From Persicaria tinctoria (Eukaryota; Streptophyta; Magnoliopsida; Caryophyllales; Polygonaceae): 64,000 bases of DNA. Positions 9,520-60,420 of this stretch are shown one piece after another (within the stretch, counting starts at the first letter, position 1; each line of letters starts with the position of its first letter). The notes beneath the pieces were generated by a model. The model saw only the letters and a program-made list of their open reading frames with translations, had not been told where the DNA came from and ran no database searches. Both the position numbers and the translations under genes were made by a program. Location of the stretch: contig JBANSL010000012.1 in NCBI GenBank assembly GCA_037127255.1, forward strand, positions 40,973,115-41,037,114. The letters run 5' to 3'.

Positions 9520-9760
9520 GGGGTTGTTCGTTACACCGCTAATTTTTACTGGATACACCGCTAATCTACGCATAAAGTTGTGGAACGAAATACGCATTCT
9601 GTTGCGTAAATCGGCAGGGGGCAGGTCAAACAGGGTGTTTGATACAGTTTTACTACGCATAATGTTGCGTAACTAGGGGACACTGTTTACAAGTCCGCCA
9701 AACAAGGTCTGACGGTGGTGTTTTGTTCCGCAATACGATGCGGACCTAAGGCAACAGGGA
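9520..9760. mobile_element. MULE-type terminus with three CGCA-N6-TGCG dyads
   Basis: Begins GGGGTTGTTCGTTACACCGC and repeats TACACCGCTAAT within 30 bp. Three 18-bp dyads follow: 9591-9608 (TACGCATTCTGTTGCGTA), 9654-9671 (TACGCATAATGTTGCGTA) and 9727-9744 (TCCGCAATACGATGCGGA). A related terminus starts the PMD-MULE at 60,048. No gene is attached here, so it is a fragment. The right limit is not defined. Confidence 0.6.
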
Positions 9761-10022
9761 TTTGCCGTATGACAGACATTGTACTCCTTACCTGATAATC
9801 GGTAAAATAACTGTAGTTATGTTAGTTAAAGAATACTTCATTGAGAACGTGACACATTCATAGAAAGTCATAAATAATCCTTAAAATAAGTGTATTGAAT
9901 TGTAGTTTTAATAAACAAAAGTCGGAAGGGACGAGTAACACATCGGAATATCACAGGTAGAACAGGGGGGGTCCATCTCGAAGTCGGAAAGGAGGGTATT
10001 GGTTGATTTTTTCTAGAAACGG
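9761..10022. other. Unassigned AT-rich sequence
   Basis: Lies between the MULE terminus and the retroelement polyprotein tail. I recognise no gene or repeat in it. Confidence 0.4.
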
Positions 10023-10229
10023 TTGATCCCAACCAACAACGCTCTTTTGTCGGTGTCGATACCTGATGCAGTGCAATTATCGATGACTCTTGATGACATT
10101 GAGGACAACATGAAGGTTCCATTCGATGGTCCTGTCACTCGTGCAAGGGCCAAGAAGATTCAAATTGCAATTAAAGCCTTTCTTGTCCGTCACCATGGAA
10201 CTTTAGAGCAAGGGTTCAGGCCACCCTAG
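10023..10229 (+). pseudogene. C-terminal tail of a Ty3/gypsy polyprotein
   Basis: An open frame of about 68 codons contains DGPVTRARAKKIQIA. The G-P-[VMI]-T-R-A-R-A-[KR] signature is the usual C-terminal tail of plant gypsy polyproteins, just before the 3' LTR. It has no start and no integrase in front, so it is a truncated remnant. It lies upstream of the LTR whose downstream side carries PBS and gag. Confidence 0.6.
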
Positions 10230-10234
10230 ATCAC

Positions 10235-11293
10235 TTGGCTCAAGGTTACACCACCAGCACAAGAAGTGAGTTTGCGTCCACACACGGAGCTCATGAAGAC
10301 TCGTCAGCACCCACCATGAACCAACCATACTCGGCTTGGTCTTGGATCACTCGACATTACCATGGGCCGAGTGGGCCTAGATCATTGTCGACAAAGATGG
10401 GCCGAGTTACTCTTGTGCATGGGCCGAGATATCTTAGTTAATTAATTATGTTATTATTTTATGCAACTTAGATAAATAAGGTGGAATTATTTATATCTCT
10501 TCTAGATATAATCCTTGGCCACCAAGTTATTAAACATTTATCTTTATTAGGAAATATTTATCTTAGGATATAATAAATCTATTCAAACCCATTTCCTTTG
10601 CAAGGAAGGATTGGTTAGATCTCCCATAGCTTTTCTATGTATATTCATGTCATGCACTTTGAATTAATTAGATTGAATTAGAATTGAGAACCCCTTTATG
10701 GATTAAAGGGTTCTTGGTTATCAATCCCAAAACACTATCATCACTTTTGTTCTTGAGACTTTCGGCAACACAATCACCATCCCCTCCCTGTTTTCGTCGA
10801 CATCGAGCACAAGCCAAACCCTTGAACCTGTCGCAAGAAGAAGGCCGGACATCGGCAGCGCTCGCCAGGACATCCGCTTCCAGCGAGGGCGCGCCCAGGC
10901 CTTGCGCGCATAGGCGCCCAGCGTCGATCGTTCCTGCGCTCTCGTCTTCGCTCCCGCGCACATCTCTCGCCATCACTCTCGCTCCCAGCAAGAGAAGTCT
11001 CCGCGCGCCTGCACCTGCACACCCTGAGGACCCGTCCTGTGTGCCCAGCAATCACGCGCATCCACTTCCGCTTCTCTCTCGCTGACCTTGTTTCGTTTCT
11101 GTCGCTATTTCATAGTTAGAAATTGCTGAAAATTTACCAAGTCTTAAACTGTCGCTATTTCAGAAATTTAATTACTTGTTTAAATTGTTCCCAATCAGGA
11201 GATATCAAAGAGCATTGCAAGATCAGACAAATATACGGCGTGGTTCTTGATCTTGAGCCCACAGGCGAAGGATCGGGTATCTCAAACGTATCA
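10235..11293 (+). repeat. Probable LTR of the Ty3/gypsy element (left edge uncertain)
   Basis: Inferred from position: it follows a polyprotein tail and is followed two bases later by a primer-binding site. The right edge ends in ...TATCA at 11,293. AT-rich U3-like sequence occupies about 10,440-10,680 and a GC-rich region about 10,850-11,080. I found no second LTR copy, so the left edge is a guess anywhere in 10,230-10,480. Confidence 0.45.
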
Positions 11294-17670: not shown

Positions 17671-17684
17671 CCTTCATCTGGCTA
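17668..17684. other. Junction filler between the gypsy and MULE sequences
   Basis: The stretch TTGGCCTTCATCTGG at the break is found again about 76 bp to the right, inside the MULE sequence near 17,745. It looks like a templated insertion made while the ends were joined. Confidence 0.5.
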
Positions 17685-18489
17685 AAGAAAAGACCTCCTA
17701 CCACGTCAGAGTCAGGCCTCCTCCTTATAACGTAGAAGTACCGCTTGGCCTTCATCTGGTGTAGAACGTCTTGGGTGATGCTCATGTCACCTCGAGCCTG
17801 GAACTTAAGCTTGGCCTTGGCGTTATATAGCTAACGTCGTGATGTAACACATCCCTCTTCTGAGTGCAGCAACGAGTATATCGGCTTAGGCAGGGTCCCA
17901 TGCGACGATAACGTCTTCACGACCTCCAATGCCTGCGGGTGGATACGCCCCCGGTAGGCGTGACCTAGTAGAATATCTGGAAGGTCGTGGTTGTGCGTTC
18001 CAGATAAAACGTACATGTGCCACTTTCCACGTTGGAATTCCCGACCCATTAAAGAGAATGGACAATTTGTGAGTTTCGTGTTACCCTTCTTCGTTGCCTC
18101 GCCGCGCTCCCTATGTTCTCTCACCTTCTTTCTCGGTTCATAGATGCCGAATTTTTCACACGCAAGGAGTACGCTACCGAGGAGGCGTTCGGTTGACGGG
18201 CACGATCTCTTGATCACTAGCACCATTTTTAGATGGGTAGCGGCTGCGTCTTGGAATGCCCGGTTTGTTGTAAAAATATCTGTGAAATCTGGCATTTCTA
18301 CTGAGGCGTTTACGTCTTCGTCCTATTCAAATTTGCGAGTTGCGTGCATAATTTAGACGGAGAGTAACAAATTTGTTGTTGTGAATGTGATGAAAATGGT
18401 CGGAAATTGAAGTATACCTCGTCGACGGAGAATTGTTCTGTTGGTACGTCATCGACGGAAACGCGATCGACGGGATCGGCAAAAGACAT
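17685..18489 (-). pseudogene. OTU-type MULE transposase, truncated copy 1 (N-terminus only)
   Basis: Minus strand. Exon 1 is 18,489-18,418 (MSFADPVDRVSVDDVPTEQF...) and exon 2 runs from 18,322 to the break at 17,685. It encodes the FAR1/WRKY-GCM-like DNA-binding region, with LLACEKFGIYEPRK, TNCPFSLMGREFQRGKWHMY and the zinc-ligand HNHD. Compared with the copy at 25-28 kb it lacks about 11 codons after TTNR and has CAG changed to TAG in TSRRQLY. The transposase core, SWIM and OTU parts are missing because the element is cut off against the gypsy sequence. Non-functional. Confidence 0.85.
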
Positions 18490-19095
18490 GGCAACGCAAA
18501 CCCAAAGACGAGATGCGGGGGGGGGGGGAGGTTTTGAGATGTGAGGAGAGAAAGAGTTCGACGATTGGGGAATCAAGTTATGCTTACTATTTGTTGTCAG
18601 TTGTAATCGACAATTATAGTAGTTGTCAGTGGGCCTAATTACTCCGCAACGTCATGCGGAGAAGACCGACGCGTACTCTAGGGCCCACATGATGCGACAG
18701 GACCGTTGAAACGCGTGATTTGTTACGCAAATAATTGCGTAGTTGTGGGATGCACTACGTATCAGGTTGCGTAATAATACGCTATAAAGTGCGGATGATT
18801 GGAGCCTTGCGGAGACGGTAACCGACATGGACAAATATGAAATTTGGCCGCGACGAAATCGCGTGCCGTAACGCATCATCATGCGTAATGAATTCGGTCG
18901 TTGCAGCTGGACAAATTTGAAATTTGAACGGCTTAAATGGTCCGCAACGTCGTGCTTTACTAATATTAGTGCAGATTGTCAATGGTAAATATTAATACTG
19001 AATAACTATAAAGATTTGAGAAAATTTACATAATTCATGACTATTTTGTAATCGTTATACAACTGCATTATGTGGGAGTTTAGAAAAATTTGGAC
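18490..19095. repeat. 5' flank of the OTU-MULE copy 1, with dyads
   Basis: Homologous to 28,261-28,945 upstream of the larger copy; part of it is repeated again at 20,266-20,660. It contains a G12 run at 18,517-18,528 and 18-bp dyads such as TCCGCA-ACGTCA-TGCGGA near 18,643 and TACGCA-AATAAT-TGCGTA near 18,724. Similarity to the other copy ends near the shared GGACAACCC, which marks the likely element end. Confidence 0.7.
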
Positions 19096-19840
19096 AACCC
19101 ATCCACGTGGTATTTATAATTGTTAAACATTACAAGGTACATATTTACACTTTATAATTGTTAAACATTACAAGGTACATATTTACACTGTATCACACAT
19201 TAATACAACCCGTCCAAACGGGTACGCAACGTAGTTATCAATTTCATCGTACAACTTGAACACTTACACCAATTATATGAAGATTTTAGTTAGGTTTACA
19301 TAAAAAACACTATTGTAGTTGTGTGCCACATATAAAGCAATGCAATCATGCAAGTAGAAATGATGATATTTGGAACGAATATTCGGATATGTCATCAAAA
19401 TGTTCACCAATCTTTACTTCAATTCGTAGGAATTGTAGCAAAAGATCGGTGAAACACTTTGATAATATATTGATATTCGACAACGTACACCCATGTGGAA
19501 AGAATATTTTGAGTTCTATTGAGATCGGCGCTAAAGTTGGTCAATTGGATAACCGGATAATCTATCAAAGTATTCTATGATCTTCGACTAATCTTCATAG
19601 AGATTATATAAAGATCACAGAAGCACTTTGATAGTTTACAGGTATCCATAAACGACGATAGAAGATACGAATTATGGAGAGAGAAAGCGGAGGGTGCAAC
19701 GATGTGTGGTGGGGAGGGGACGTATTTATAGGGGATCGGGGTAGATGGAGTTGCCTCTGTTCCGCGGTTCGACACGTATAGATCCGCACGATGTAGCGGT
19801 TAGTAACGCGGTCGATTGCGAAATTCTAGCGCAGTAGTGC
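19096..19840. promoter_or_regulatory. Non-autonomous cassette with minus-strand TATA and leader motifs
   Basis: A minus-strand TATA box (plus-strand TATTTATAGG near 19,720) is followed downstream by a degenerate leader motif on the minus strand near 19,567-19,584. Plus-strand copies of the same motif lie near 19,447 and 19,612. A 38-bp tandem duplication with TTATAATTGTTAAACATTAC lies at about 19,115-19,190. No protein-coding gene is supported. Confidence 0.5.
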
Positions 19841-20265
19841 CCGCTTGCATCGAAATCGGCGGCTCGTGGTTGACAAGATACGCATCGGCATGCATAGCTT
19901 TACGCATCGTAATGCGGATCTGTTGGGCCGACAGAGGGCAAAACTAAAGAGAGAAGACTGGTATGCAGTTCTTGATCACTCGCATGAACGTATCTACGAC
20001 AATTCGATGGCCACTTAATTTTGTGTATACCCTTACTTATTTTTTCTATAATCATCATATGGAATCTAAAGTACAATATCGAATACAAATTATATATTGT
20101 CAATTGGCTTTCAGTATTGTTACAATATAGATTAAATACAATTACACTGCAACGTAACACATTTGAAACAATTGAGAGTATATATTATCAATTGAAACAA
20201 ATACGTTACACTGCGAAGTAACACATTTGAAACACTGCAACGTAACACATTTGAAACAATTGAAA
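19841..20265. repeat. Dispersed repeat block B, copy 1
   Basis: Contains the dyad TACGCATCGTAATGCGGA near 19,900, the marker TTGGGCCGACAGAGGGC and the AT-rich CGATGGCCACTTAATTTTG segment. The same succession occurs at about 20,760-21,150 and partly at 22,173-22,420. No gene. Confidence 0.6.
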
Positions 20266-20660
20266 GAGTTCGACGATTGGGGAATCAAGTTATGCTTACT
20301 ATTTGTCGTCAGCTGTAATCGACAATTATAGTAGTTGTCATTGGGCCTAATTACTCCGCAACGTCATGCGGAGAAGACCGACGCGTACTCAGGGGCCCAC
20401 ATGATGCGACAGGACCGTTGAAATGCGCGTTTTGTTATGCAAATAAATGCGTAGTTGTGGGATGCACTACGTATCAGGTTGCGTAATAATACGCTATAAA
20501 GTGCGAATGATTGGAGCCTCGCGGAGGCGGTAACCGACATGGACAAATATGAAATTTGTCCGTGACGAAATCGCGTGTCGTAACGCATCATCATGCGTAA
20601 TGAATTCGGCCGTTGCAGCTGGACAAATTTGAATTTTGAACGGCTTAAATTGTCGGGATA
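20266..20660. repeat. Dispersed copy of the OTU-MULE 5' flank
   Basis: Nearly identical to 18,557-18,950 and clearly related to 28,330-28,750, including the dyads at the same relative positions. There is no transposase next to it, so it is a solo fragment or part of a deletion derivative. Confidence 0.7.
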
Positions 20661-21157
20661 GATGGAGTTGCCTCTGTTCCGAGGTTCGACGCGTATATAT
20701 CCGCACGATGAAGCGGTTAGTAACGCGGTCGATTGCGAAATTCTAGCGCAGTAGGGGCCGCTGTTGGGCCCTACTGCGCATCGTAATGCCGATCGGCATG
20801 CATAGCTTTACGCATCGGCATGCATAGCTTTACGCATCGTAATGAGGATATATTGGGTCGACAGAGGGCAGAACTAAAGAGAGAAGACTGGTATGCAGTT
20901 CTTGATCACTCGCATGAACGTTTCTACGACAATTCGATGGCCACTTAATTTTGTGTATACCCTTACTTATTTTTTCTACAATAATCATATTATCAATTGG
21001 CTTTCAGTATTGTTACAATGTAGATTAAATACAATTACACTACAACGTAACACATTTGAAACAATTGAAAGTATATATTATCAATTGAAACAAATACGTT
21101 ACACTGCGAAGTAACACAATTACATTACACTGAAACAATTACGTTACATTACTGAAA
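20661..21157. repeat. Dispersed repeat block B, copy 2
   Basis: Repeats the sequence of 19,740-20,230 with small deletions and a short duplication (GCATGCATAGCTTTACGCATCG occurs twice in its first part, described here only by its core GCATAGCTTTACGCATCG). Ends in a run of GTTACACTG-like units. Confidence 0.6.
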
Positions 21158-21720
21158 CTTAAACGGGTGAGCCAGAATACGACCAGTGTGGTACCCTCGC
21201 AGCGTGGGGCAAAATACGACAAGTCTGCTACGACATTCTGCGCAGCTTGGTCTATTCAATTCCAAAGTGTTTCACCGATCTCTACTCGCCTCGAAACGTA
21301 GATTGATTTCAATCCACACATATAATGAAATATTGTTGCCAATGACACATATGCGGATGTGAGGACCGACAAGAGATGGACTAGTATTTATAGGGACTTT
21401 TGTCCTCCTTACGAAGACATTCGCGACAAAACGCGGATATATACGCATTACATTGTGGATACATACGCGGATATATTTGCGGATTTTGAAGGGTCCCTTC
21501 CATCTATATAAACGCAGCACCATTAATCTTGAGCATATGCTTTAACAGTCAGTCACATGTACAACACTAATATATTCTCCACATTGTACAGTCCAAGGTA
21601 AAGATCATGGAAGCTCTTTGGGGTAGGGACGATGAAAATACACCGCCGGTTGTGTAACCTCAAACTCTCGCCCTGTCGGGGGTGGGTGGACCGGTCGATG
21701 TGGTGGATTCTCGCCGGTTG
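21158..21720. promoter_or_regulatory. Divergent promoter cassette 1
   Basis: A minus-strand TATA box (TATTTATAGGG, 21,384-21,394) and a plus-strand TATA box (CTATATAAAC, 21,504-21,513) face away from each other across about 110 bp rich in ACGCGGATATA-type half-sites. The leader motif lies downstream on each side: minus strand 21,263-21,280 and plus strand 21,603-21,620. The plus-strand motif contains an ATG opening a short frame, MEALWGRDDENTPPVV. A close paralogue is at 22,414-22,800. Confidence 0.6.
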
Positions 21721-21726
21721 TGTAAC

Positions 21727-22172
21727 CTCGATCTCCTTCTCCTTGTCCCTGTTCAGATTCACTCTTTGTACATTACTCTCCTTTAGATCATCAACATCTT
21801 CATCAGATCCATCCACATCAACCTTCCCTCTCTTCGGAAACTTGCCTCGCACGCCACTCTCCTCATCGTCAAGATGCTCGTCCTCCTTAACAGTAGGTCT
21901 TTCCAAAGATTGAGTCTTGGCGTGGGCGGTTCCACTTCCCTCTATCCGACTCCGAGGCTCGACTGAACCGGAATTGATTTGGGGCTCTTCGTCCTCCTCA
22001 GAATCGGAACTCTCCTCCTCGTATTCGGAGCTCTCATCATCGGAGTCGGAACTCTCAGAAATTTCAGAGATTTCAGAAAGTTCAGAGCTCGAAACCAGCA
22101 AATGTTGGGATTTTTCAACTCCATTTCCGGTCTCCATCAACTCCTCATTTTGCAAGTCTCTGATCAGGGCCC
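21727..22172 (-). pseudogene. Probable captured gene fragment, acidic Ser/Glu-rich
   Basis: Minus-strand open sequence encodes an acidic protein segment with SSEYEEESSDSEEDEEP and later GKFPKRGKVDVDGSDEDVDD. Both flanks match repeat DNA: the left side equals cassette 2 at 22,770-22,900 and the right side equals block B, but the middle has no repeat partner in the window. That is the structure of a gene fragment carried by a non-autonomous MULE (Pack-MULE). I do not recognise the source gene; it looks like a nuclear or chromatin protein only by composition. Confidence 0.55.
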
Positions 22173-22413
22173 ACTTGCATCGAAACCGGCGGCCCGAAGT
22201 TGACAAGATACGCATCGACATGCGTAGCTGTACGCATTGTAATGCGGGTCTGTTGGGCCGACAGAAACTGCAAATTTTTTCTACAATCATCATATGGAAT
22301 GTAAAGTACAATATCGAATACAAATTATATATTGTCAATTGGCTTTCAGTATTGCTACAATGTAGATTAAATACAGTTACATTACACTGAAACAATTACG
22401 TTACATTACGGAA
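22173..22413. repeat. Dispersed repeat block B, copy 3 (partial)
   Basis: Resumes the block B sequence with GCATCGAAACCGGCGG and the dyad TACGCATCGACATGCGTA near 22,209, then the AT-rich tail. It directly follows the captured fragment. Confidence 0.6.
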
Positions 22414-22800
22414 ACTTAAACGTGTGAGCCAGCAGTCTGCTACCCAGAATACGACCAGTTTGATACGACATTTTGCGCAGCTTGGTCTATTCAATTCCAA
22501 AGTGTTTCACCGATCTCTACCCGCCTCGATGTGAGGACCGACAAGATATGGACTAGTATTTATAGGGACTTTTGTCCTACATACTAAGACATTCGCAACA
22601 AATCGCGGATATATACGCATGACAGTGCGGATACATACGCGGATATATGCGCGGATTTTGAAGGGTCCTTTCCATCTATATAAACGCAACACCATTAATC
22701 TTGAACATATGCTTTAACAGTCAGTCACATGTACAACACTGATATATTCTCCCACATTGTACAGTCCAAGGTAAAGATCATGGAAGCTCTTTGAGGTAGG
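22414..22800. promoter_or_regulatory. Divergent promoter cassette 2
   Basis: Paralogue of 21,158-21,720. The minus TATA is at 22,558-22,567 and the plus TATA at 22,676-22,685. Leader motifs are at 22,498-22,515 (minus) and 22,776-22,793 (plus). It lacks the captured fragment, so it shows the empty state of the cassette. Confidence 0.6.
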
Positions 22801-23960
22801 GACGATGAAAATACACCGCCGGTTGTGTTACCTCAAACTCTCTCCCTGTCGGGGGTGGGTCGACCGGTCGATGTGGTGGATTCTTGGGTGCTGGAAGAAG
22901 CGATATAGCCAGTTGGGCACTAACATGAGAGTGCGGACCGCCGACGAATGGCTCTTCCTCTTTCGCAGTAGGGGACACGTTGAGACAATGTGTCTCGTAC
23001 GAAAAAATTTGAAGGAATACCTGCGCACTTACATACGTAGCATTTAAGCACTTCCACGTGCACATGTTACGAATCTACATCTGTAACTTCTGTAGAGGCT
23101 TCCCTTGCCGTTTACATACGAATACACAGTTGTGGTAGTGTTATTGTATTCGTTTTTCTTTCATGTAGCGTTTTTTTCCCAAAGCTTTTCCATTAAAGAT
23201 GTTACGAAGTCCTTACAAAGTTTTGTAATGATCGGTGAACCACGTCAATTATAATGCGATATAAGAAATATGGTCTTCCTTTGGCAGTAGTACGTATTCT
23301 TTACAACACCTGCGGGGGTTGTCCATTTTCCGTTTTATAATGTATGAACAAGCACACTTATGGGACGGAGAATATGGTCTTCCTTTGTGGTCACTTCTTA
23401 AGTAGGTACGCATCCTCATCCGTTTCAGCACGTGGTGACAGAAACTGCACGGTAGGACCGATTGCATCAAAACCAGCGACCCTCAACTTCACACATTACA
23501 CAACGGATTGCGTAGCTGTACGCTGTCGACCGACACTGCAGGGCCCGTACCGAACCAGCGCATGCTTGGGAACTTGCTGTCATAGTTACGCATCGTAATG
23601 CGGATATAAATCTATTAGCTGGCAGAAATTACAGGCGAAGACAGGGCCTGGTTGTCTCTTGACCACGTCCTATGCAGATGCTACGCATCGACATGCGTAA
23701 CGTCCGCATATCGACACAAACGACAATTGATACGCAGGAAATTGCGCAATACAATGCGCACGGGTATATATACGTCAACATGCATTCTGGTAATATTTGT
23801 GTTACAGTCATTTAAATGTATTGCACTTCCGCATTCTCCTTTGTAAAGTTAGAATAGAACAAAAGAGCACGGAAGCACTTTGGAGTTATGAGGCGAGAAG
23901 ACACTTCTCGTCCCATCGTTGTAGGGTCGAACATGTATCGATGTACACACTTCCACATTC
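22801..23960. repeat. Degenerate non-autonomous MULE sequence
   Basis: No coding gene can be supported. A dyad TACGCATCGACATGCGTA lies at 23,682-23,699. A plus-strand TATA-like GGTATATATACG lies near 23,765. A leader-motif relative with ATG changed to ACG (CACGGAAGCACTTTGG) lies near 23,867. Confidence 0.45.
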
Positions 23961-23964
23961 TCCT

Positions 23965-24105
23965 TAATTGTTTATATTAATTCTTACAATGTCGTTGTAC
24001 ACACTTCATATCAAATATAATTTGCAAAATCTAATGGAAATTCTAAATGCGTTTCCCAACAGATAATTTACTTTATTACATCGAAATAATTTTACAACAA
24101 AAGAA
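23965..24105. repeat. Direct repeat flanking a small gene fragment, copy 1
   Basis: Shares the succession TGTACACACTTCATATC, AATCTAATGGAAATTCTAA and TAATTTACTTTATTACATCG with 24,865-25,010 (period about 907 bp). A third, diverged copy lies near 51,110-51,210. Confidence 0.6.
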
Positions 24106-24249
24106 AATGGATTTTCATAGTTTTCGTACAAAATATAACAAATGTGTTGACATAATAAACTCATCAGATACACCAACGACTAGGCACGAGGTTCACACGG
24201 TTGCTGTTGAACCGCAATTATTGATCCAGGTACACGCCAACATTTACTC

Positions 24250-24570
24250 ATGACGGCGTTGGAGATAAAACCGTGCTTACCCAGGGATATTTCAACCTCC
24301 CAACCCTTTCGGACGAAGTCACGTCGCACTCACAGCTCATTGGATCCTCTGAGCTGTAACGACGTCTACATGACTTCACCACGTGCGATGGGAGTTTTTT
24401 TATTATTACACTCAAAGTGTTACACCGATCCTTCACCACCTCTCTCATTGAAATCACCGCTTGGAATGAGTGTTTTACACCAAACAATTCGGGCGAGTAA
24501 GAAACAACCATTTCGAGAAATGAATGCAACTTCCCGAGCACGACCAACTGAATTTATAGGCTGAAATGCC
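24250..24570 (-). pseudogene. Small element gene fragment with TATA box, copy 1
   Basis: The minus-strand TATA (plus-strand GAATTTATAGGC near 24,550) is followed by a leader, the leader motif at 24,413-24,430 and an apparent 84-bp exon. That exon is bounded by TAG on its left and a GTAAGC donor on its right, coding DPMSCECDVTSSERVGRLKYPW in the open frame. The second copy at 52,550-52,850 conserves the exon and its splice signals but not the frame in front of it. I do not recognise the protein. Confidence 0.4.
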
Positions 24571-24864
24571 GCCAACCTACGAACGAACTAGGGTAAGCCC
24601 CACGGTTCGGATATTTCCGCAACTTTATGCGGATATTTACACATCTCCTTTCGGACAGAAATCTGGCAGGTCCGAACCGGGCCACTGCATGCACGCGTGT
24701 TTTGGACTTTTTCTCTTTTGATAGACACCTACATGCGTAGCTTTCCGCCAGCTTCCGGTTCGAACCCAATGACAGAACCCTCCACCTAACGTGACTACGC
24801 AAAACAGACATATGTACACATATGGAGTTCCCATTGTGTACTTTTTTTAATTGTTTATATTAAT

Positions 24865-25010
24865 TGCTATTTACTAAATTTAATGTCAATTCTTACAATG
24901 TCGCTGTACACACTTCATATCGAATGTAATTTACAAAATCTAATGGAAATTCTAAATGCGTTTCCCGACAGATAATTTACTTTATTACATCGAAATAATT
25001 TTACAACGAC
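24865..25010. repeat. Direct repeat flanking a small gene fragment, copy 2
   Basis: Second copy of 23,965-24,105. It runs straight into the duplicated 141-bp segment at 25,014. Confidence 0.6.
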
Positions 25011-25013
25011 AGA

Positions 25014-25154
25014 AAAATGAGAATCATTGTAATTAAAGGAGATACACTCAAACTGAAAAAGAAGACGTTGGTGATTAGGGATTGATAGCTTATCTTTCTA
25101 CGGACAGTTTTTTATTTTTCGTTTTGACTTTTTTTGTTACTCTCTTAATTTTAG
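25014..25154. repeat. 141-bp segment duplicated from/at 9,379-9,519
   Basis: About 99% identical to 9,379-9,519 by eye, with the same order relative to the following terminus. Confidence 0.75.
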
Positions 25155-25222
25155 GGGGTTGTTCGTTACACCACTAATTTTTACTGGATACACCGCTAAT
25201 CTACGCATAAAGTTGCAGAACG
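25155..25222. mobile_element. MULE-type terminus next to the OTU-MULE gene
   Basis: GGGGTTGTTCGTTACACCAC and the repeated ACACCGCTAATCTACGCAT match 9,520-9,587. Similarity stops after GAACG, where the C-terminal end of the OTU-MULE gene begins. The region between terminus and gene, present at 9.6 kb as dyads, is missing here. Confidence 0.6.
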
Positions 25223-28260: not shown

Positions 28261-28945
28261 GGCAATGCAAACCCGGAGATGGGGGGGGGGGGGGGGGGGA
28301 GGATTTGAGAGATGAGGAGAGAAAGAGTTCGACGATTAGGGAATCAAGCGACGCTTACTATTTGCAGTCAGCTGTAATCGACAATTATAGTATTTGTCAG
28401 TGGGCCTAATTACTCCGCAACGTCTTGCGGAGAGGAACGACGCGTAATAAGGGGCCTACATGATGCGACAGGACCGTTGAAAGGCGCGTTTAGTTCGGCA
28501 ACCAATTGCGTAGTGGTGGGAATGCATTACGGAGCAAGTTGCGTAATAGTAAGCCGCAAAGTGCGGAACAATAGAGCCTCGCGGAGGCGGTAAGCAACAT
28601 GGGCCATTCTCCGCATGAAGTTGCGGACGGAAGTCGACCATTACGAAAGCGCGTGCCATAACGCATCATCATGCGTAATGAATTCGGCCGTTGCCAGTGG
28701 ACAAATTTGAAATTTGAACGGCTTAAATGGTCCGCAACGTCGTGCGTTGGTATTATGCGACGAATTTTCCATACGTGACAGATACAACATGTTACTAATA
28801 CTAGTGCAGATTGTCAATGGTAAATATCGATACGTCAATGGATACTGAATAACTATAAAGATTTGAGAAAATTTCCATAAATGATCACTATTTTGTAATC
28901 GTTATACAGGTGCATTATGTGGGAGTTTAGAAAAAAGAGGACAAC
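28261..28945. promoter_or_regulatory. 5' flank of the OTU-MULE with dyads and a G19 tract
   Basis: Upstream region of the minus-strand transposase. A run of 19 G (28,281-28,299; C in the transcript sense) sits about 20 bp upstream of the ATG. Dyads include TCCGCA-TGAAGT-TGCGGA near 28,608 and AACGCA-TCATCA-TGCGTA near 28,661. Similarity to 18,490-19,095 ends near GGACAACCC, which I take as the element end. No clear TATA box. Confidence 0.55.
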
Positions 28946-30735: not shown

Positions 30736-30870
30736 TGTTTCACCGATCTCTACACATGTTGAAACGTAAATTGACTTCAAACCATACATATAATGAAATA
30801 CCGTTGCCAATGACTCATATGTGTGGATGGGAGGATCAACAGCAATTGGACACGTATTTATTGGGAATTT
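30731..30870 (-). promoter_or_regulatory. Minus-strand promoter and leader motif
   Basis: The leader motif lies at 30,731-30,748 on the minus strand (plus strand CAAAGTGTTTCACCGATC). A TATA-like TATTTATTGGG lies upstream in the minus sense, near 30,856. It resembles the minus half of cassettes 1 and 2. Confidence 0.45.
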
Positions 30871-44009: not shown

Positions 44010-47000
44010 TTTCATCTAAGAATCAAACCTTACGAAGTGACGTTTATAATAGGTGTGTATTATATTGTAGTCTTTTAAATTGTAATCGTTGGAATGGACA
44101 TGATTTTGTGGTGCTCTTTGGTTCAATTGTCATTGTCACATCTCAATACATAATCGATTATGACGACTACTTCCCAAGTATTGTGCACTGGCGAGACGCA
44201 ATATGTCGCAATGAATGCGGTATGCTCATTCTAATGTCAGTATCGAACGTAACCACGTATTCAACGCGGATAGTTTCGTAGTATATTTATTTTGAGGTCC
44301 GCATGTTATTGCGGAACATCACGCATTTCGCCGCGGAACCGTACACGGTATTAATCGGCGGCTTCAGCGCTTAGCGCCAACCACCGTGTGAGGCCGAAAT
44401 TTACAAAACAATTATCAAATCAAACTACTGTTTTGGCGCTACAAAGTCCGAACAGTTCTGTCATATCTACTGTTATCAAATCAAACTACATCGATGGAAA
44501 ACAAAACTGTATAAACAAGATATGCTACACATTAACATTATTAAGCCAATATTTAATCAAAGAAAAGGCATTGTTACAATTGTGGAGGGGATCTGGGTAA
44601 TATTTTCATAGTGATTTTCCAGATCTTATGTCTGTCAGGGTTCGAACGCAAGACCTTTGGTTTTATAGGCAAACCTAAAGCCACTGAGACTACCAGGTTG
44701 GCGATTGGGGGCGTAAGCTTCGAGCGAGGTGACATATATGGAGGCTCGAGGGCACAGATCTTAAGAGATATGACTCGAGACGGAGGAGAGGAGACACCCG
44801 CCTTGCCGCATACATGTCGTTGTCGGAGGGACGAGGCTAGTCTAATAGCCAGCACACACCCCACCTGTCGGCTCTCATCCGCAACCTGTCCACTCCCCCT
44901 CCACAACCTGTCCACACCGCTCTGCGTATCTGAAATCAAAGTAGTTCCCTGATCTTTTAAGTGTTCATTTCATATGAGAGATATAATGTTTGTAAAGCAT
45001 TGCTGTATGGAAATTAGATCATTCAACGATATGCTTATGAGGTTCAAAAGCCCCATCTCAAACGAGTATGAAAACAATCATTTCTAGAATTGGGTGCAAC
45101 TTCCGAAGCACGATCGACTCTATTTATAGGGTGGAATGACGGTTGGCCCCAGGGTTCAGATGCCTCCGCACCTTGTTGCAGATGGCTCCGCATCTTGTTC
45201 ATGGTTCCGCAACATGTTGTATTGCTACGCCATTTAGTGTGGAACCTATACGCAACCAGATGTGTAGAAGTTTACCTGAACCATTTCTTTATACTCTTGT
45301 TACGCATCTAGACGCTTGTGACGAAGTTAATCTCAATAGATACGCAACATCATGCGTAAGCCAACAAACTGCGAATATTCACAACCCCTGCCACATCGAC
45401 ATGCTTGTAACTCCAAGGGTTCAGATGCCTCCGCACCTAGTTGCGGATGGCTCCGCATCGTAACGTGTAACTCCACGCATAGATGTTGCATACAGAACCG
45501 CACTGTCATGCGGACCACACCGAAGTGACATGCGGGCTTGTAGATGCCACAAGTCTCCCCTGCATAGTTAAAGTGTCAAGAATGACGTTACTTTCGGAAT
45601 TGTAGGTGACATGAAATTCAAGTCTATAGTGGTACTCAGTCATTCATCACTTCATTTTATTGCCCATTTATAACTGTTGTAAGGGTCATGGAAGCACTTT
45701 GTCGCGAACTAGTTTCGGCTTACAGCATCCATGGCGACAACCCCAATCAGAATGTCTTTCTGTATGTAGGTCGCCAGCCAAAGCAATTGTTTGTCGATTA
45801 TATTATTTCAGAGGCTTGTTTTGACAGCCAATTATTATAATGATTTCACTCGTTAATGAGATTGTGTTATATTTTGACAGTAGGCAATAGGTTACAATAC
45901 AACGTCAAACATCATGTTTTATCGAGACGAAATTTAGTGCGGAACTGTTACGCATGAAGACGTGTAGACATTTATCTCAATCTCAAGAGGAAATGTTACG
46001 CATCTTGATGCTTGCAGCGGAGGTTATCCGACTAGATACGCAACTGCATGCGTAGCAATCCGAACTCAACCACCAGCACAAATCTGACTAGCATAACCCA
46101 TGCCAGTGCACGAGTTTGTCGGAGGTTATCAGACTAGATACGCAACTGCATGCGTAGCTATCCAACCTCAACCCCCAACACAAATCTGACTGGCCTGACC
46201 CCCCATGCCAGTGCACGAGTTTGTCGGAGTTTATCAGACTCGATACGCAACTGAATGCGTAGCTAACCAACCTTAACCCCCAACACAAATCTGACTTGCC
46301 TGACCCCCCATGCCAGTGCACGAGTTTGGCGGAGTTTATCAGACTAGATACGCAACCGCATGCGTAACTATCCAACCTCAACCCCCGACACAAATCTGAC
46401 TGGCCTGACCCATGCCAGTGCACGAGTGTGGGGGTTTATCTCAGTAGCTACGCATCGGCCAGCGTAGCATCCACTCTGACCCTCCGCCACATATCTGACT
46501 GGACTGACCGAGTCGAACTGCACTCCTGCGTCGGACTTTATCTCCGTAGATACGCACATGCATGTGTATCTCGCCGCCATCTACGCAGTGGTATGCGTAT
46601 GGTTCCGCACCTACGTGTGGTTGTATCCACAAATACTCAGGGTGACCGAACTATTGCTCCACCATTATAAATAAACGACGACTGTGTAATGAACCACTGA
46701 GCCATTGTTGATATCATAGGTTCGGAACACGTTTGGGCCAATGGGATATTTTCAAGGGTTAAACAATGAGCATACTCCCCCAACGATAAGTTATGTAAGG
46801 GTCATGGAAGCACTTTGATAACACTTGTTTATTTGGGATTTGGTTAGGGTTTCGTGCGACACACTCGATGTAAATAACGGGACGAGCCGTTCACGGAGGG
46901 GCCCAACACTCTCTCCACCCTGCGCCGTTTGCCTCCGCAATGATCCGCAATATCATAAGGGGAAGTGGAGGGCAGACTCATGGATCTTCATATCCACGGT

Positions 47001-49163
47001 GAGAGAGCCGTAGGCACTGCATCAATCCCAACGTGATCGACTCGATCATGGAATGGTAAGGCAGACTCATGGAATTCCATGGCCACTTCGAGAGGGTCAA
47101 GTTTTCTGCTCTGCGTCAATCCCGTTAGGACCGACTCCTAAGTGAAAGTGGTCCCGCTAACCCTATCGAAGCCAAGGTTCGAACCCAAGACTTAGGTTTA
47201 CAAAGCAAAGGAGAGTAGAGATTCGAACCCAATGTTCGAACCCAAGACTATTATGTGATTATTTTGGTCATTGTTCTCGTTCTCACATATACCACTGGAA
47301 GTGGCCAGTGTATCAGTGTAAAAGGAGATATTTTGTAATGAAGAAACATATTGCAAAAACACAAACATTGAAACATAGTCCGAACAATTGTGATTGCTAT
47401 TTCTTGAATTTCTTCGAAATGAACATAGTCCGAACAATTGTGTAATATGTACTGTCTCCAAATCAAACTACATCGACTGCAAAAACCTCCATACACAACA
47501 TATGCTTAATCTTAAATTTTAAGCCAAGATCTAATCAAACAACATGTCTTATTACAATTTTCTATGGGATGTGGTAATATTTTAGAGGAAAGCTTCGAGC
47601 GAGTGCGACCGCGACCGTCGTATCTGATGTGGAGGGCCGAAACGAGACGATGGCGGAGACGAAGACGAGACGGAGACTGAGATGGAGGAGACGGAGGATA
47701 GGACACACACTAGTCGGAGGGACGAAGCTCGTCCGGGCCGCTGACATGCCATGGTCGGAGGGACGAAACTAGTTGAAGAGCTAGCAGGCACCCCCACCTG
47801 TCCGCTCCCCTCCGCAACCTCTCCACTCCCCCTATGCAAGCGTGCCACTCCGCCCCGCATATCTAAAATCAAAGTACTTCCATGATCTTTAAAGTTTTTA
47901 TTTCATACGGGAGATATAAGGTCTGAAAAGCATCGTTGTATGGGAATTAGACCATTCCATTATATGCTTATGAGGTTGAGCATCCCCATCCGTTGCCTTT
48001 TATAGACGTATGCGTTCCGCAGGTAAATGCGGATATATATTGTGTGATGTAGTGCGGATCGTTTTGCAGTTGCATGCGTCTCTTTTCCCCTTATTAATGC
48101 GGTTGGGGACTGCCCACCACTGTAGTGTAGCTGCGTATAAATACGGTAACTTGCTTGCTAGGCACTTACAATGGGTGTATATTATGTTGTAGTCGTTTAT
48201 ATTGCAATCGTTGCAATGTACATAATTTTTGGGTATGTCTTGTTTCAATTCTCATTGTCCCAACCCAGTAATGATTACCTTGTTTCGTAGCGGGAAAGTG
48301 GATGCGTGGAAGATACATCGAGCAAGGGCCATTTCGTAGCGGGTGATGCGAAACATGTCATTTTGTATGCGTAAAATATAATTGAAAGAACGTTACAAAT
48401 TTGAACCGACTTTAGGATTGAAACACCATTTCATAGAAATGCGCACACATCTATCTTCACCGATCTCTCCTTCACTTTAGGCAATTAAAGTGCTTCACCG
48501 ATCTGTCATTGTTGTCGTATGAGATGAGAAAATTTCACCTTCGTTGAATTGTATGTACACATAATTTGTATGGCAAAGTGCTTCACCGATCTCTCCTTTA
48601 CCAAATGTAATAGACATTGCCAGAATTTATTTGCAACCTTCATTCTGTTGTAGATAATGTGTGACCCCATAAAATTTGGAACAAATTATTAATACATCGA
48701 TTTAAATACAAACTAGTCCATACCTCAATTATCATTTACAGTATTGCATAAAGGCAATTAGAGTAACAACACATAATATACATCATAAAGAAACTCTTCA
48801 CTATTTGTCATTTTCACTTACCATAATAGCACTGCCCTTGACAAGGCGGATGGAGAACCAGCAGGTGTAAGTTAGCACCCATCGCTCTGGGAATCACAAT
48901 TCTGTATGGAGCACAAGAGTGATTACTGCAACTCCCTGACCAGCTGATTCATTTCCATCACCAGCAGTTTCATATCCATACAAATCAAAGTGATTCCGTG
49001 ATCTTTTGATAGTTAATGTATGAATACATATTATGGAGGTGGGTGAGAAATATACCATAGTATGAGCCATGATATGGGGATACGGTTGGTCTGGGCTGTA
49101 TTTATAGGCATCTAGCAGATTTACGCAGCTAGGTGTGTAACAAGTGGCCTCGTTAGTTGCGTG
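44010..49163. repeat. 5,154-bp tandem repeat, unit 3
   Basis: Complete copy, nearly identical to unit 2; one visible difference is GCGTAACTATCC in place of GCGTAAATATCC near 46,368. On its right side the sequence leaves the repeat at GTGTTTATAAGC. Confidence 0.95.
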
Positions 49164-51320
49164 TTTATAAGCGTCCCACCTACCCTTCCCAGAATTGTGC
49201 CGGTCGTGTAGTTACGCATATTCATGCGTAACTCAACGGTCGACACAATTCAAGTGTACGTGATGGGACATCCGTTTGATATACTGCGAACACTTCGCAT
49301 ATAGCCGCGTACATGACCTCAGCTAATTGAGGACGTGCATGATTTGGGGTGTATATATCCAGCACGGCGAACATGTATATATACATCACCATGTATTCCG
49401 CTAATATTTACATTTAACTCATTTTAATGTTTGTCACTTGTCACTACAACATCCTCCTTTTTACAGTCATTCCACCAGGACCAAAGATCATGGAAGCAGT
49501 TTGGAGTTACGGGGGCGACCGCAATCGTCAGTCTGTCGTGGTACAGTGAAACATGTCCCAACAATGGAGTCTGGTAAACAAATACCAAATTTGTGTTGCC
49601 TATTTGTCGATTATGCATGTAACGGCCGATGTATCCGTGTAAATCCGCGGATATTTTGTCATTAACTAACTGCACACAAGAAACATATTGGAAAAACACA
49701 AACATTGAAACATAGTATGAACAATTGTGATTGTTATTTCTTGAATTTCTTGGAAATGAACATAGTCCGAACAATTGTGTAATATGTACTGTAACCAAAT
49801 CAAACTACATCGACTGCAAAAAAACCCCTTACACAATAAATGTTTAATCTAAAATATTAAGCCAAGATCAAATCAAACAACATGCCTTATTAAAATTGTC
49901 GAGGGGATGGGTTAATATTTTAAAGGTAAGCTTCGAGCGAGGGCGACAGCGACCGTCATATCTTATGTGGAGTGCCGAAGCGAGACAATGACGGAGACAG
50001 AGACGAGACGGAGACAGAGGAGACGGAGGATGGGAGACACACTAGCCGGAGGGACAAATCTCGTCCGGCCCGCTGACATGCCATGGCTGGAGGGACGAAA
50101 CTAGTTTCAGATCCAGCAGGCACCCCACCTGTCCGCTCCCCTCCACAACCTCTCCACTCCCCCTCTGCAAGCGTGCCAATCAACGTACTTCCATGATCTT
50201 TAAAGTGTTCATTTCATACGGGAGATATAAGGTTTGAAAAGCATCGCTGTATGGGAATTAAACTATTCCACTATCTGCTTATAAGGTTCAGCATCCCCAT
50301 CCGCTGCCTTTTATAGACGTCTGAGTTCCACAAATAAATGCGGATATATATTGCGTGATGTGGTGCGGATCGTTTCGCAGTTTCCTGCGTCTCTTTTCCC
50401 CTTCTTAATTACGCATAATTACAAATTTGAACCGACGTTATGATTGAAACACCATTTCACTTGTTGTGCGGCTCTGTTACGCAGGTAGGTACGTAACCAG
50501 GGGCCTCGTTAGTTGCGTCCTCATAAGCGTCCCACCTACCATTCCCAGAATTGTGCGCCCTGTTTAATTACGCATATTCATGCGTAACTCAACGGCCGAC
50601 ACAATTCGGCATATCGGACTGGGACATGGGTTTGAGATACTGTGAACACTTCGCATATAGCCGCGTACATAATCGCAAGGGAATGCGGATACAACCGCAA
50701 CGACATCCGGCCCTCAGCTAAATGATTACGAACATGTATATATACATGACCATTTCTTCAGCTAATATGTACATTTAACTCATTTGAATGTTTTTCACTG
50801 CAATATCCTCCTTTTTACCGTCGTTCCGCTAGGACCAACGATCATGGAAGCACTTTGGAGTTAAGGGGGCGACAAGGCACCGCCAGTCTATCGTGGTACG
50901 GTCCAACATGTCCCGACAATGATGTCTGGTAAACAAATACCAGATTTGTGTTGCCTATTCGTCGATTGTGCATGTAACGTCCGAAGACTACGTAGCAGTT
51001 CTTAGTCACTCGCATGAACGTATCTACGGCGAATTGCTCATCTCCCCTCAATAATGTCACTCAATTCGTGCGATAGACGTTAAAAAGTTCTCATACTAAG
51101 CACTTTGTTATTTAGTGAATTTCATGTCTATTCTTACAGTGTCGTTGTACGCACGTCATATCGAATGTTGATCACCAAATGTAATGGAAATTCTAAGGTC
51201 GTTGCCCAATGTTGTTATGCATATCGCACCTAAAGAAATAAAGTAACAGTACTACTTAGACATAAAAACAATATAAAATCTACACAATTGTACACATTCC
51301 GACATCAACCTTTCGCCTCC
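49164..51320. repeat. Related cassettes right of the triplication
   Basis: Two related stretches (49,164-49,510 and 50,510-50,860) each contain the dyad TACGCATATTCATGCGTA (49,213-49,230; 50,569-50,586), TATA-like GTATATATACAT and a plus leader motif (49,486-49,503; 50,840-50,857). After the motif both keep a coding-like phrase, RGTV.HVPTM.SGKQIP. 49,780-50,320 repeats the subterminal and GC-rich blocks of the tandem unit. No intact gene. Confidence 0.5.
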
Positions 51321-51321
51321 A

Positions 51322-51750
51322 TCATGTCGTTTTTGGGATCACTTGAATCTTAAGCTCATTGAATGCAAAGGTTCGGACCTCCATATTTGCTTCCTTAACA
51401 AGTACTCTTGCATGTTGGGCTACATCTATGTGGTCATGTTCGCTTAACTTCGGGAAGAATGATCGAATACGTTCTAAAAGAAGGGCTCCAACCCTCCAGT
51501 AATACGCTCCAGGAATACCCTGATGAAACTGGTTGCAGTAAGCGCAACCAAACTGTAAGGGAGCGGATATGTGAGTGTCATTTTCACACTCCACTCGAAA
51601 TAGTGTGCATGGATGGATGCCATTGTATTCTGGATTGCGGCAAGCACAATCGGACTCGTCAGGCGGTGTCGAATACCGATCCCATTGAATTACAAAATCA
51701 ATGCGTGGATTTGAACCGCAATGTTCAGTTGTCACCGGCTCCATACGCAT
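51322..51750 (-). CDS. Unrecognised Cys-rich element protein (142 aa)
   Basis: Intact minus-strand frame from ATG 51,750 (MRMEPVTTEHC...) to the stop at 51,322. A second ATG two codons in is an alternative start. The middle has clustered Cys residues (CACRNPEYNG, HPCTLFRVEC, FGCAYC), suggesting a metal-binding fold. The C-terminal half is predicted helical and basic/acidic (LLLERIRSFFPKLSEHDHIDVAQHARVLVKEANMEVRTF). A TATA box lies about 50 bp upstream and seven phased CGCA-N6-TGCG dyads lie 110-290 bp upstream, the same promoter layout as the PMD-MULE gene. An intact frame in otherwise decayed DNA suggests recent or selected coding. I do not recognise the family; a DNA-binding regulator of the element is possible but unproven. 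Confidence 0.6.
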   Translation of the reverse strand: MRMEPVTTEHCGSNPRIDFVIQWDRYSTPPDESDCACRNPEYNGIHPCTLFRVECENDTHISAPLQFGCAYCNQFHQGIPGAYYWRVGALLLERIRSFFPKLSEHDHIDVAQHARVLVKEANMEVRTFAFNELKIQVIPKTT

Positions 51751-51798
51751 TAAGTACAATGTGGAGTTGTGTAATTCATATGTGTATCAATTGGGGTG

Positions 51799-51859: not shown

Positions 51860-52036
51860 AGCGCATGCAAATGCGTATGAAAACGCAACCCAATGCATAT
51901 AGATACGCAAGCCAATGCATATACATACGCAACTCAATGCGCATATGCGGTGTTCCAGTCAAACTGCGTATAGATACGCAACCCAATGTCTATAGATACG
52001 CAAGCCAATGCATATACATACGCAACTCAATGCGCA
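51860..52036. promoter_or_regulatory. Array of seven dyads in 22-bp phase
   Basis: 18-bp dyads of the form NACGCA-N6-TGCNNA start at 51,860, 51,882, 51,904 and 51,926, exactly 22 bp apart. After a 93-bp duplication they start again at 51,975, 51,997 and 52,019, also 22 bp apart. The array is upstream of the minus-strand 142-aa gene. Confidence 0.75.
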
Positions 52037-52549
52037 TATGCAGTGTTCCAGTCAAACTGCACTTCCGGCGGGCAAGCGCATCCTTCCATCGACATTGGGC
52101 CCACGACCTCTTCATGCGGGCCGCATCTGCCTGCGAAACTAAACAATCGAGACAAGCTCTGTAAAGGACCTAACCCACGGACCTAGCCAGTTGATACACG
52201 CTGAATCCATGATTGAATCGAACAAAGGACAGTGTATATATTTTATAGACATGCGTATGTAGTCGTTGGTGGATGCGGAGCACCACCGAACATAGCCTGC
52301 GTCTCCAATTAATCAAGTGTACATTCAATTGAAATCGTCGGCAAATGTCGTTTATTAAATCGAAATCATTCTACAATAACAGAGAATGTATTTTCACAAT
52401 ATTAGTACACAAATAACAAACGTGTTTACATCAGAAACTCATCAGATACACCAACGAGCAGACACGAGGTTCACCCGGTTGTTGTTGAACCGCCATTGTT
52501 GATCCAGGTAGACGCCAACATTTACACATTACGGCGTTAGGGGTGAAAT
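52037..52549. other. Spacer between the dyad array and small gene fragment
   Basis: Partly related to 24,050-24,240 in its right half (CTCATCAGATACACCAACGA, GAACCGCCATT). No gene is supported. Confidence 0.4.
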
Positions 52550-59650: not shown

Positions 59651-59677
59651 AAGCAAAAGTCTAAGCATGTGGTAGTT
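59651..59677 (+). other. Polypurine-tract region
   Basis: AAGCAAAAGTCTAAGCATGT followed by GGTAGTT directly precedes the 3' LTR. It matches the purine-rich context that plant gypsy-type elements show before TGATAGAGTC-type LTR starts. Confidence 0.5.
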
Positions 59678-60047
59678 TGATAGAGTCTATTTTAGTCATG
59701 TTTTTAGTATAGATTTGCATAGTAATTTAGAGCATTTTTACCTATTTTGTAGTTAATTTATATTATTTGATTTTCGGAGTCTACACTAGTGCTTTTATAT
59801 ATTTCAGGTATTTTCGAGCTGGATCGTATAAATTTAGAGGAAGATCGCAATTTAAGGGCTTATTGGGCGAATTAAAAATGGACCGGCTACGTATTTGGGC
59901 CGATGAAGTACATACCGGCATACCATATCCAATGGTGGAGGAGATGCGGTTCGGCGTTGGTCTCACAAGCCGCATTACATATAAATTAGATATATATTAT
60001 ATAAATAAATAATAAATTAGGATATTTAGAATACTCCGTATTATATT
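59678..60047 (+). repeat. 3' LTR, truncated
   Basis: Repeats 52,875-53,260 at high identity, with a small deletion near 59,980, and is cut off after GTATTATATTT where the PMD-MULE terminus begins. The rest of the LTR is missing or lies beyond the window. Confidence 0.85.
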
Positions 60048-60097
60048 TGGGGTATGATATGTACACCGCTAATTTTTATTATTTACACCGCAAATCC

Positions 60098-60420
60098 ACC
60101 GCATACCTATGCGGTGTCTTAATCAAAATTTAGCCTAACATACCGCATGTACATGCGGTATGTCCGTTGACCGTATAAAAACACCGCATGTACGTGCGGT
60201 GGGTTAGGTTGAAACGGAGTCCGTAATACGATAATCCGGTTGGGTCGAAGTTATCTGAAACAAACCGCATACCCATGCGGTGGAATTTTAAAATATTTAA
60301 AACGCATACCGCATACCCATGCGGTATGATTTTAAATCTGGGTAAGAACATACCGCATCTCCATGCGGTATTTTTTTACCGTCGTGACAACGGTAAAAAA
60401 ATACCGCATGGAGATGCGGT
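60098..60420. promoter_or_regulatory. Seven ACCGCA-N6-TGCGGT dyads upstream of the PMD promoter
   Basis: 18-bp dyads lie at 60,098, 60,142, 60,183, 60,264, 60,308, 60,352 and 60,403. Six have perfect ACCGCAT/ATGCGGT arms; the one at 60,183 ends GTGCGGT. Spacers vary while arms are conserved, as expected for protein-binding sites. The last two form a larger inverted repeat. Confidence 0.85.
60352..60420. repeat. Perfect 69-bp inverted repeat
   Basis: Arms of 31 bp, each starting or ending with a full dyad and a T7/A7 run followed by ACCGT/ACGGT, are separated by a 7-base loop (CGTGACA). It could extrude as a cruciform. It lies 25 bp upstream of the TATA box. Confidence 0.85.

Follow-up and report, generated by a model that had tools for sequence, protein, structure and literature searches.

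A CGCA dyad of fixed spacing arrayed in two families of Mutator-like elements of Persicaria tinctoria: candidate operator sites of an element-encoded protein

The 64,000-nt stretch C12:40973115-41037114 of Persicaria tinctoria (the window, always meaning the whole stretch) contains 72 copies of the dyad CGCA-N6-TGCG, all of them in DNA of Mutator-like elements (MULEs) of two families, one with an OTU-like portion in its transposase gene (OTU-MULE) and one with a PMD domain (PMD-MULE). The architecture, the statistics and the family specificity of the dyads are direct observations. Judging from the sequence, the dyads may be operator sites of an element-encoded dimer, most likely the product of a small Cys-rich gene of the OTU-MULE (gene B), which would bind the arrays cooperatively to regulate or de-silence the element; we hold this reading tentatively, at a little short of an even chance. 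To the dyads described in a first-pass annotation of the window, the analysis adds a 22-bp lattice, arrays before two element genes, gene B, a shared core of the terminal inverted repeat (TIR) and a third half-site, ACGTT.

Dyad counts, spacing and motif

Near-perfect dyads with a fixed 6-bp spacer had been reported in the first-pass annotation, and counting bears this out: spacer 6 gives 72 sites in the window and each other spacer between 0 and 20, including the 4, 5, 7 and 8 proposed for comparison, gives 0 to 5. With exactly one mismatch allowed, spacer 6 still ranks first (81 sites; other spacers from 0 to 15 give 6-30). With a 5,154-bp tandem repeat reduced from three copies to one, 52 sites were left, against a mean of 0.49 and a maximum of 2 in 100 dinucleotide-preserving shuffles of the trimmed window. 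Among gapped words of 4+4 bases (spacers 0-20), CGCA-N6-TGCG had the highest z of all words seen at least 20 times, and the highest observed/expected ratio of the palindromic ones.

The six dyad positions quoted earlier were correct (cores at 9593, 9656, 9729, 23684, 49215 and 50571), as were both zones, and a listing of the 72 sites confirmed the outer bases, with arms TACGCA/TGCGTA or TCCGCA/TGCGGA in the OTU-MULE and ACCGCA/TGCGGT in the PMD-MULE. The PMD zone (60100-60405) has seven cores, all preceded by AC and followed by GT. For the OTU type, 95 distinct sites gave the motif T(91%)-[A 54/C 36]-CGCA-[T/A]-N4-[A/T]-TGCG-[T/G]-A, in which CGCA/TGCG was imposed by the search and the outer T was free. 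Each type of half-site (CGCA, ACCGCA and ACGTT) includes one CpG.

Dyads are inverted repeats and could act as hairpins or cruciforms instead of protein sites, and the outer positions of the two arms are weakly correlated (Fisher p 0.01). However, among the 77 of 95 OTU-type sites that have A/C and T/G at the outer positions, 26 have mixed arms that cannot pair there, which makes hairpins a poor rival; they would also leave the 22/23-bp phasing of separate dyads unexplained. We regard them as the least credible of the explanations considered, and the earlier suggestion of a dimeric protein gains support.

Equal density outside MULE-related DNA, which the first-pass annotation had named as the finding to look for against its claim, was not seen. 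In the non-MULE DNA as we delimited it (1-9517, 10064-17678 and 52875-60040; host, Gypsy and long terminal repeat (LTR) retrotransposon; 24,298 bases) there are 0 of the 72 dyads, and the remaining 39,702 bases hold all of them. Within the window, none of the 72 lies in the transposase/OTU coding region or in that of gene B.

Genome-wide counts and family specificity

Genome-wide counts were made on the 1.68-Gb assembly with the reversed pattern as control, and the spacer comparison was with spacer 5 only and OTU-type arms only. TMCGCA-N6-TGCGKA was found 2,691 times (control 383) and the same arms with spacer 5 were found 57 times (control 44). The first of these controls (383) is elevated, probably by dyad neighbours 22 bp apart, since these create TGCG-N8-CGCA, a match to the reversed pattern. 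The PMD version ACCGCA-N6-TGCGGT occurs 7,715 times (control 315) and mixed arms (ACCGCA/TGCGKA) 114 + 83 = 197 times (controls 25 + 20); the outer bases therefore belong to families, as had been claimed. A third type, GACGTT-N5-AACGTC, occurs 1,246 times (control 125). Taken together, the three types have 11,652 perfect sites, a simple genome-wide marker by which a group of very large plant MULEs could be traced.

Of the first 50 TMCGCA sites listed, on contig C1, 45 have another no more than 5 kb away (counted by eye), and a cluster of 18 spans the OTU-MULE transposase copy C1:39704469. Of the first 50 listed ACCGCA dyads, 13 surround C1:3966402, a transposase of the 45%-identity class; on this one case we take the class to be the PMD family.

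A host transcription factor, whose sites the elements had collected, would fit the position of dyads beside TATA boxes in promoters. Against it stand the lack of any dyad outside MULE DNA in the window, the clustering of the listed genome sites and the family-specific half-sites, since a host factor is not expected to need a different site per family; we consider it improbable.

Elements of the window and their ends

The features of the window are as follows.

9518..10063, minus strand: right end of OTU-MULE copy A, with the TIR (TTAGGGGGTTGTTCGTTACACCGCTAATTTTTACTGGATACACCGCTAATC) and then dyads 9593, 9656 and 9729; matches the C1 copy at 22716-23261
17679..25016, minus strand: remainder of copy A beyond a dyad-free Gypsy insertion (10064-17678), with dyads 18645-24618
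25153..25221, minus strand: right TIR of OTU-MULE copy B, truncated just inside
25201..26115, minus strand: OTU-like portion of the transposase gene, with DGHC read by eye
26710..28082, minus strand: transposase exons of copy B, FAR1-like DNA-binding domain (27171-28082) and MULE domain (26710-27222)
28412..28760, no strand: cluster of dyads that lies 150-500 bp before the probable start codon of the transposase (28260, by eye), with perfect sites 28416, 28612, 28662 and 28733
29919..50690, no strand: dyad-rich noncoding stretch of copy B, in which the three tandem modules of 5,154 bp lie (33702-49166)
51325..51786, minus strand: gene B, Cys-rich open reading frame (ORF) of 154 aa, first Met 51744
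51860..52136, no strand: array of the gene B promoter, a 22-bp lattice of CGCA dyads of which some have one mismatch (51862, 51884, 51906 and 51928; 51999 and 52021), and a further dyad at 52122
60046..60097, plus strand: PMD-MULE start, its outer limit being approximate; the TIR core is TACACCGCTAATTTTTATTATTTACACCGCAAATC, with two TACACCGC 22 bp apart
60098..60422, no strand: seven ACCGCA-N6-TGCGGT dyads upstream of the first long frame of the PMD-MULE (Met 60578, by eye)
62576..63878, plus strand: PMD-MULE, PMD domain (62576-63070) and MULE transposase domain (63477-63878); the element runs past the window end

The element is a MULE by its transposase, with domain PF10551 at 60.3 bits (26710-27222) and 63.1 bits (63477-63878). 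The FAR1-like domain scored 25.7 bits, under the cut-off of 28.1, and the portion with DGHC, which we take to be an OTU domain, did not reach the Pfam OTU threshold. The three head-to-tail modules at 33702-49166 are 99.9% identical with about ten dyads each, and represent either a recent amplification of DNA bearing the predicted operators or an assembly artefact.

VANDAL-type MULEs are not known to have long TIRs at their ends; the present TIR core, of about 50 bp, is clear. OTU-MULE copies terminate in TTAGGGGGTTGTTCGTTACACCGCTAATTTTTACTGGATACACCGCTAATC with the first dyads a few bases further in, and the PMD element opens at about 60,046 with the similar core TACACCGCTAATTTTTATTATTTACACCGCAAATC. 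Window copies show single ends only, and inverted TIRs were found in two other elements. In the 25-kb stretch C1:39684501-39709500 (L044-L046), inverted TIR cores at 1527(+) and 23218(-) enclose all 25 dyads and one large insertion (spacers 4, 5, 7 and 8 give 1, 1, 1 and 0 in this stretch); TTTTTAAA on both sides of this one element is likely an 8-bp target duplication (by eye). L001 is a TIR-bounded non-autonomous element of about 0.9 kb.

Two 209-bp pieces of the window (9379-9587 and 25014-25222) are 98% identical; in each, about 70 bp of TIR adjoin 139 bp that appear to be flank, which would be a trace of aberrant transposition or duplication.

These ends bear on a close rival, in which the transposase, through its FAR1-like N-terminus, would bind the dyads as an extension of its TIR sites and also repress or activate its own promoter. 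Two TACACCGC lie exactly 22 bp apart in the TIRs of both families, their CCGC resembles the PMD half-site ACCGCA, and the dyads start right inside; L001 has kept dyads towards both of its ends. The transposases of the two families look related (the 45%-identity class, with C1:3966402 lying amid 13 listed ACCGCA dyads), and their elements have the CGCA core in common. It is a close rival because the TIR has related repeats on a 22-bp step and the PMD element has CGCA-core dyads with no gene B found in its in-window part. On the other side, OTU-MULE dyads also extend over tens of kb and stand before gene B, far from the ends. Predicted from sequence as it is, we rate the transposase as a serious possibility without favouring it.

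The two families had been inferred to carry divergent versions of one protein-operator system. That they are related stands, and with TIR cores alike they are closer than supposed; one system in both is not established, because the in-window part of the PMD element yielded no gene B homologue.

Promoter arrays and lattice

At 20 gene B loci there are 120 spacer-6 dyads versus 19 for twelve other spacers, and a stretch of 1,000 bp counted from where the gene B match starts contains none. The consensus of 19 promoters (L052 was left out as a near-duplicate of L049) has four dyads in exact 22-22-22 bp steps, ending about 55 bp before TTTATAAA; one of the four has a mismatch and some copies miss part of the four. 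On the transposase side, 26 of 30 OTU-MULE loci, one of them the window's own, have 1-7 perfect dyads (L014, L025, L030 and L034 have none), mostly 330-660 bp upstream of the matched coding exon, with 92 spacer-6 sites versus 6 for twelve other spacers together.

Arms were kept while spacers varied, as previously noted, in both promoter alignments. Mean conservation over five consensus dyads of the 30 transposase loci was 0.895 in arms, 0.819 in spacers and 0.850 in other noncoding columns, and each of these dyads is intact in 15-19 of the 20-28 copies with letters there; the arms have a modest excess, as would suit copies in decay. The gene B promoter gave 0.940 for arms and 0.891 for spacers.

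Half-sites of the window are found at distances of 10, 32 and 54 bp from CGCA to TGCG (52, 12 and 9 cases) and of 22 and 44 bp from CGCA to CGCA (20 and 10); the 22-bp signal is weaker in the C1 copy (5 and 2). Over all loci, 37 of 121 distinct pairs 15-121 bp apart are exact multiples of 22, where 5.7 were expected, a count that treats mutated versions of one homologous pair as separate. A Fourier scan of the lattice gave no single sharp period because many distances in the transposase promoter are off the lattice (50, 71, 81 and 115 bp), for which reason the exact-multiple count is the better summary. PMD dyads of the window follow each other at 44, 41, 81, 44, 44 and 51 bp, four of the six steps being 41-44 bp.

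A chance palindrome without function, spread by tandem duplication within the elements, would agree with the recent duplication of part of the region (the three 5,154-bp copies) and with the non-arm bases of 22-bp neighbours, which are 43% identical on average in 19 pairs and up to 79% in the 51.9-kb array. Yet 6 of those 19 pairs share only 0-29% of these bases, the spacer varies in letters and is fixed in length (2,691 versus 57), arms exceed spacers in both alignments, and unrelated letters build the same geometry in the ACGTT type described next. This explanation is very improbable.

Half-site switch in promoters of gene B relatives

The sample comprised nine promoters, from relatives of gene B at 55-71% identity. 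Eight of them (L070, L071, L073-L078) have no CGCA dyad, even with one mismatch; instead, each of these eight has between one and five dyads of the form ACGTT-N5-AACGT, mostly GACGTTG-N3-CAACGTC, upstream of its TATAAA box. Offsets pooled from five of these promoters peak at 10 bp forward-reverse (16), 13 bp reverse-forward (23) and 23 bp forward-forward (16) and reverse-reverse (13), i.e. the half-site offset is 10 bp as in the CGCA type and the lattice is 23 bp. The TIR core TACACCGCAAAT lies upstream of the array in four of the eight loci (L070, L074, L075 and L078). Thus geometry and TIR core stay and the half-site changes. In the ninth promoter, L072 (70% identity), three CGCA dyads, each with no more than one mismatch, follow at intervals of 44 and 22 bp. 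On C1, GACGTT-N5-AACGTC sites are located within 410 bp upstream of four of the six listed gene B copies in range. That the core TACACCGC[A/T]AAT is kept in 4/8 ACGTT loci, where the dyads are different, would argue against the transposase as the binder.

Gene B

The gene B protein (154 residues) contains C-x-C, C and C-x2-C-x3-H. A protein database search returned one match among 6 candidates, unnamed, and the genome has at least 150 scored matches (150 of 1,972 candidates scored). Pairing with transposases was counted on 36 of the 150 gene B rows, the close copies, and on 59 of the 132 rows for transposases, within a limit of 70 kb that was chosen once a 60-kb pair had been seen; five transposase rows (four second pieces of counted copies and the short copy C16:61085422) were left out of this and the following pairing test. 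An OTU-MULE transposase lies within 70 kb of 29 of the 36 copies and is absent from that range in 7, and each of the 29 pairs has gene B on the strand of the transposase and upstream of it (chance 0.18). No listed gene B is found within 70 kb of 30 of the 59 transposase copies. The distances of 2.7 to 60 kb (median 21 kb) imply that the elements are very large or riddled with insertions.

The ratio of nonsynonymous to synonymous substitution rates (dN/dS) was 0.26-0.40 across promoter types (three pairs tested) and 0.53-0.63 among ACGTT-type genes (three pairs). Of six close pairs, five gave 0.24-0.50, and one that has diverged little gave 2.5. Gene B is a maintained protein-coding gene, as dN/dS is low in most pairs.

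A very divergent second relative of gene B (25% identity over 131 residues, E 5e-11) was found at L040:79-534 on C5, 5.9 kb upstream of a transposase and within the 54 kb that separate it from gene B; its FAM221 match is weak and below cut-off. A link between distant gene B relatives and 45%-class transposases was considered and, among the copies listed, tentatively dropped after comparing the other 114 gene B and 68 transposase rows (lists with 150 of 1,972 and 130 of 3,357 candidates scored). The literature searched, in which subscription journals were thinly covered, held no paper on such dyads or on gene B, with no search aimed at the dyad letters.

Proposed mechanism

From this arrangement we infer binding, a dimer and cooperativity. 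A gene B dimer would meet half-sites that start 10 bp apart, with one CpG in each, in dyads many of whose neighbours repeat at 22 bp (CGCA) or 23 bp (ACGTT), about two helical turns, so that dimers could align cooperatively on one face of the DNA. Arrays stand in several places: just inside the TIRs, before the gene B TATA box, before the transposase gene and across long noncoding stretches. The gene B product would control its own promoter and the transposase and, on CpG-bearing sites, would keep the element from being silenced; in distant relatives the half-site differs, with geometry and TIR core kept. A fixed spacer, symmetric arms better kept than spacers, phasing of about two turns and placement at TIRs and promoters form the pattern that a one-face cooperative dimer would leave. 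Gene B is favoured as the binder because both types have an array at the promoter of gene B itself, and the array changes from one type to the other whereas the TIR core is constant.

Several observations weigh against this reading. Its protein has no recognised DNA-binding domain and no Pfam match, and its AlphaFold model is unusable (pLDDT 37.9, 15 sequences). The in-window part of the PMD element has no gene B homologue although the family has CGCA-core dyads, and only 2 of 114 listed distant relatives lie within 100 kb of a 45%-class (likely PMD) transposase, where chance gives 0.9. In the transposase promoter, the CpGs of the arms are only a little better preserved than the remaining CpGs (203/262 versus 793/1,106), linkers of the gene B promoter are conserved like arms (0.941 and 0.940), many neighbour distances are off the lattice (50, 71, 81, 115 and 121 bp), and the TIR CCGC repeats 22 bp apart suit the transposase. 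The promoter types are not proven to be two gene B clades, the gene having been read for three of the eight ACGTT loci (L067-L069). Nor are the types told apart by identity to the window protein (L076, 71%, ACGTT; L072, 70%, CGCA), and L072, over 20 residues only, matches the window protein at 15 and three ACGTT-type proteins at 9-14.

The effect of binding would likely be autoregulation and possibly resistance to CG methylation, by analogy with reports for VANC and TnpA. A wider proposal, possible but rather doubtful, is that gene B represents a new family of small Cys-rich transposon-encoded regulators acting as a cooperative dimer filament on a two-turn lattice of CpG dyads, in which protein and half-site would have switched together (CGCA to ACGTT) between MULE families with dimer geometry and transposase TIR fixed. 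VANC-like sequence-specific anti-silencing, or else TnpA-like control, would then have been invented independently, and each element would carry operator arrays over tens of kb. Were this true, the elements would supply a natural series of matched protein-operator pairs of one geometry and swapped letters, a test of DNA-binding specificity co-evolving with its sites inside selfish elements, a way to learn whether an element can directly resist methylation through its CpG-bearing sites, and a source of new sequence-specific regulators beyond VANC.

Comparison with known systems

The earlier parallel with VANDAL MULEs holds in layout: family-specific motif arrays were found in noncoding element DNA, and the motif changes between relatives. 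In the parts of the literature used here, VANC proteins of Arabidopsis VANDAL MULEs are associated with arrays of a short motif, often as tandem repeats in noncoding DNA, YAGTATTAY for VANC21 and AGTTGTCC/AGTTGTAC for VANC6, which those parts do not describe as dyads (PMC5735166, PMC10398659). By these accounts the systems are alike in being related MULEs with a repeated short noncoding motif that differs between related families and with an accessory gene beside the transposase. They are unlike in that YAGTATTAY contains no CpG, and the present elements have one per half-site, a strict dyad of fixed spacer, a 22/23-bp lattice and a gene B without a Pfam match.

In CACTA elements (En/Spm), according to the sections consulted, subterminal repeats are bound by the element-encoded TnpA, which also regulates the element, and TIR and transposase are conserved while repeats and binder diverge (PMC2613891); TnpA is linked to demethylation (PMC10398659). 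A comparable division would hold here. Superfamily and TIR are different: the TIR here is TTAGGGGG...TACACCGC and the transposase is that of a MULE, so that membership in CACTA was rejected. The likeness to VANC/VANDAL and TnpA/Spm would lie in the way of working, and the elements are not assigned to VANDAL/VANC.

The mosquito MULE Muta1 has a 145-bp TIR with nine tandem subterminal units of 12 bp, separated by linkers of 3-4 bp, and its terminal motif is an imperfect palindrome (PMC5225508, in the portion used). It is alike as a MULE with short subterminal repeats and a palindromic terminal motif, and unlike in that the same portion describes neither an accessory gene nor a promoter dyad lattice (PMC5225508).

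Other observations in the window

A small ORF at 29410-29667 (+) encodes the finger-like CRHCGHRYKVTNNLQYGHLKRHITTKH, with weak CpXC and BED scores below cut-off; this BED-like ORF was dropped as a candidate binder (best E 0.93 across four other OTU-MULE copies). In the PMD-MULE a 39-bp tandem repeat at 63052-63208 (+) encodes LKRHINNNLQHG, and the peptide NLQxGHLKRHI is common to both; the pieces are possibly a displaced zinc finger.

A dyad-free LTR-retrotransposon-like element (52875-60048), its direct end repeats 95% identical, separates the PMD-MULE from what is left of the OTU-MULE. The Gypsy-like element at 14723-17670 has its reverse-transcriptase region tandemly duplicated internally (1.37 kb, about 95-97% identity).

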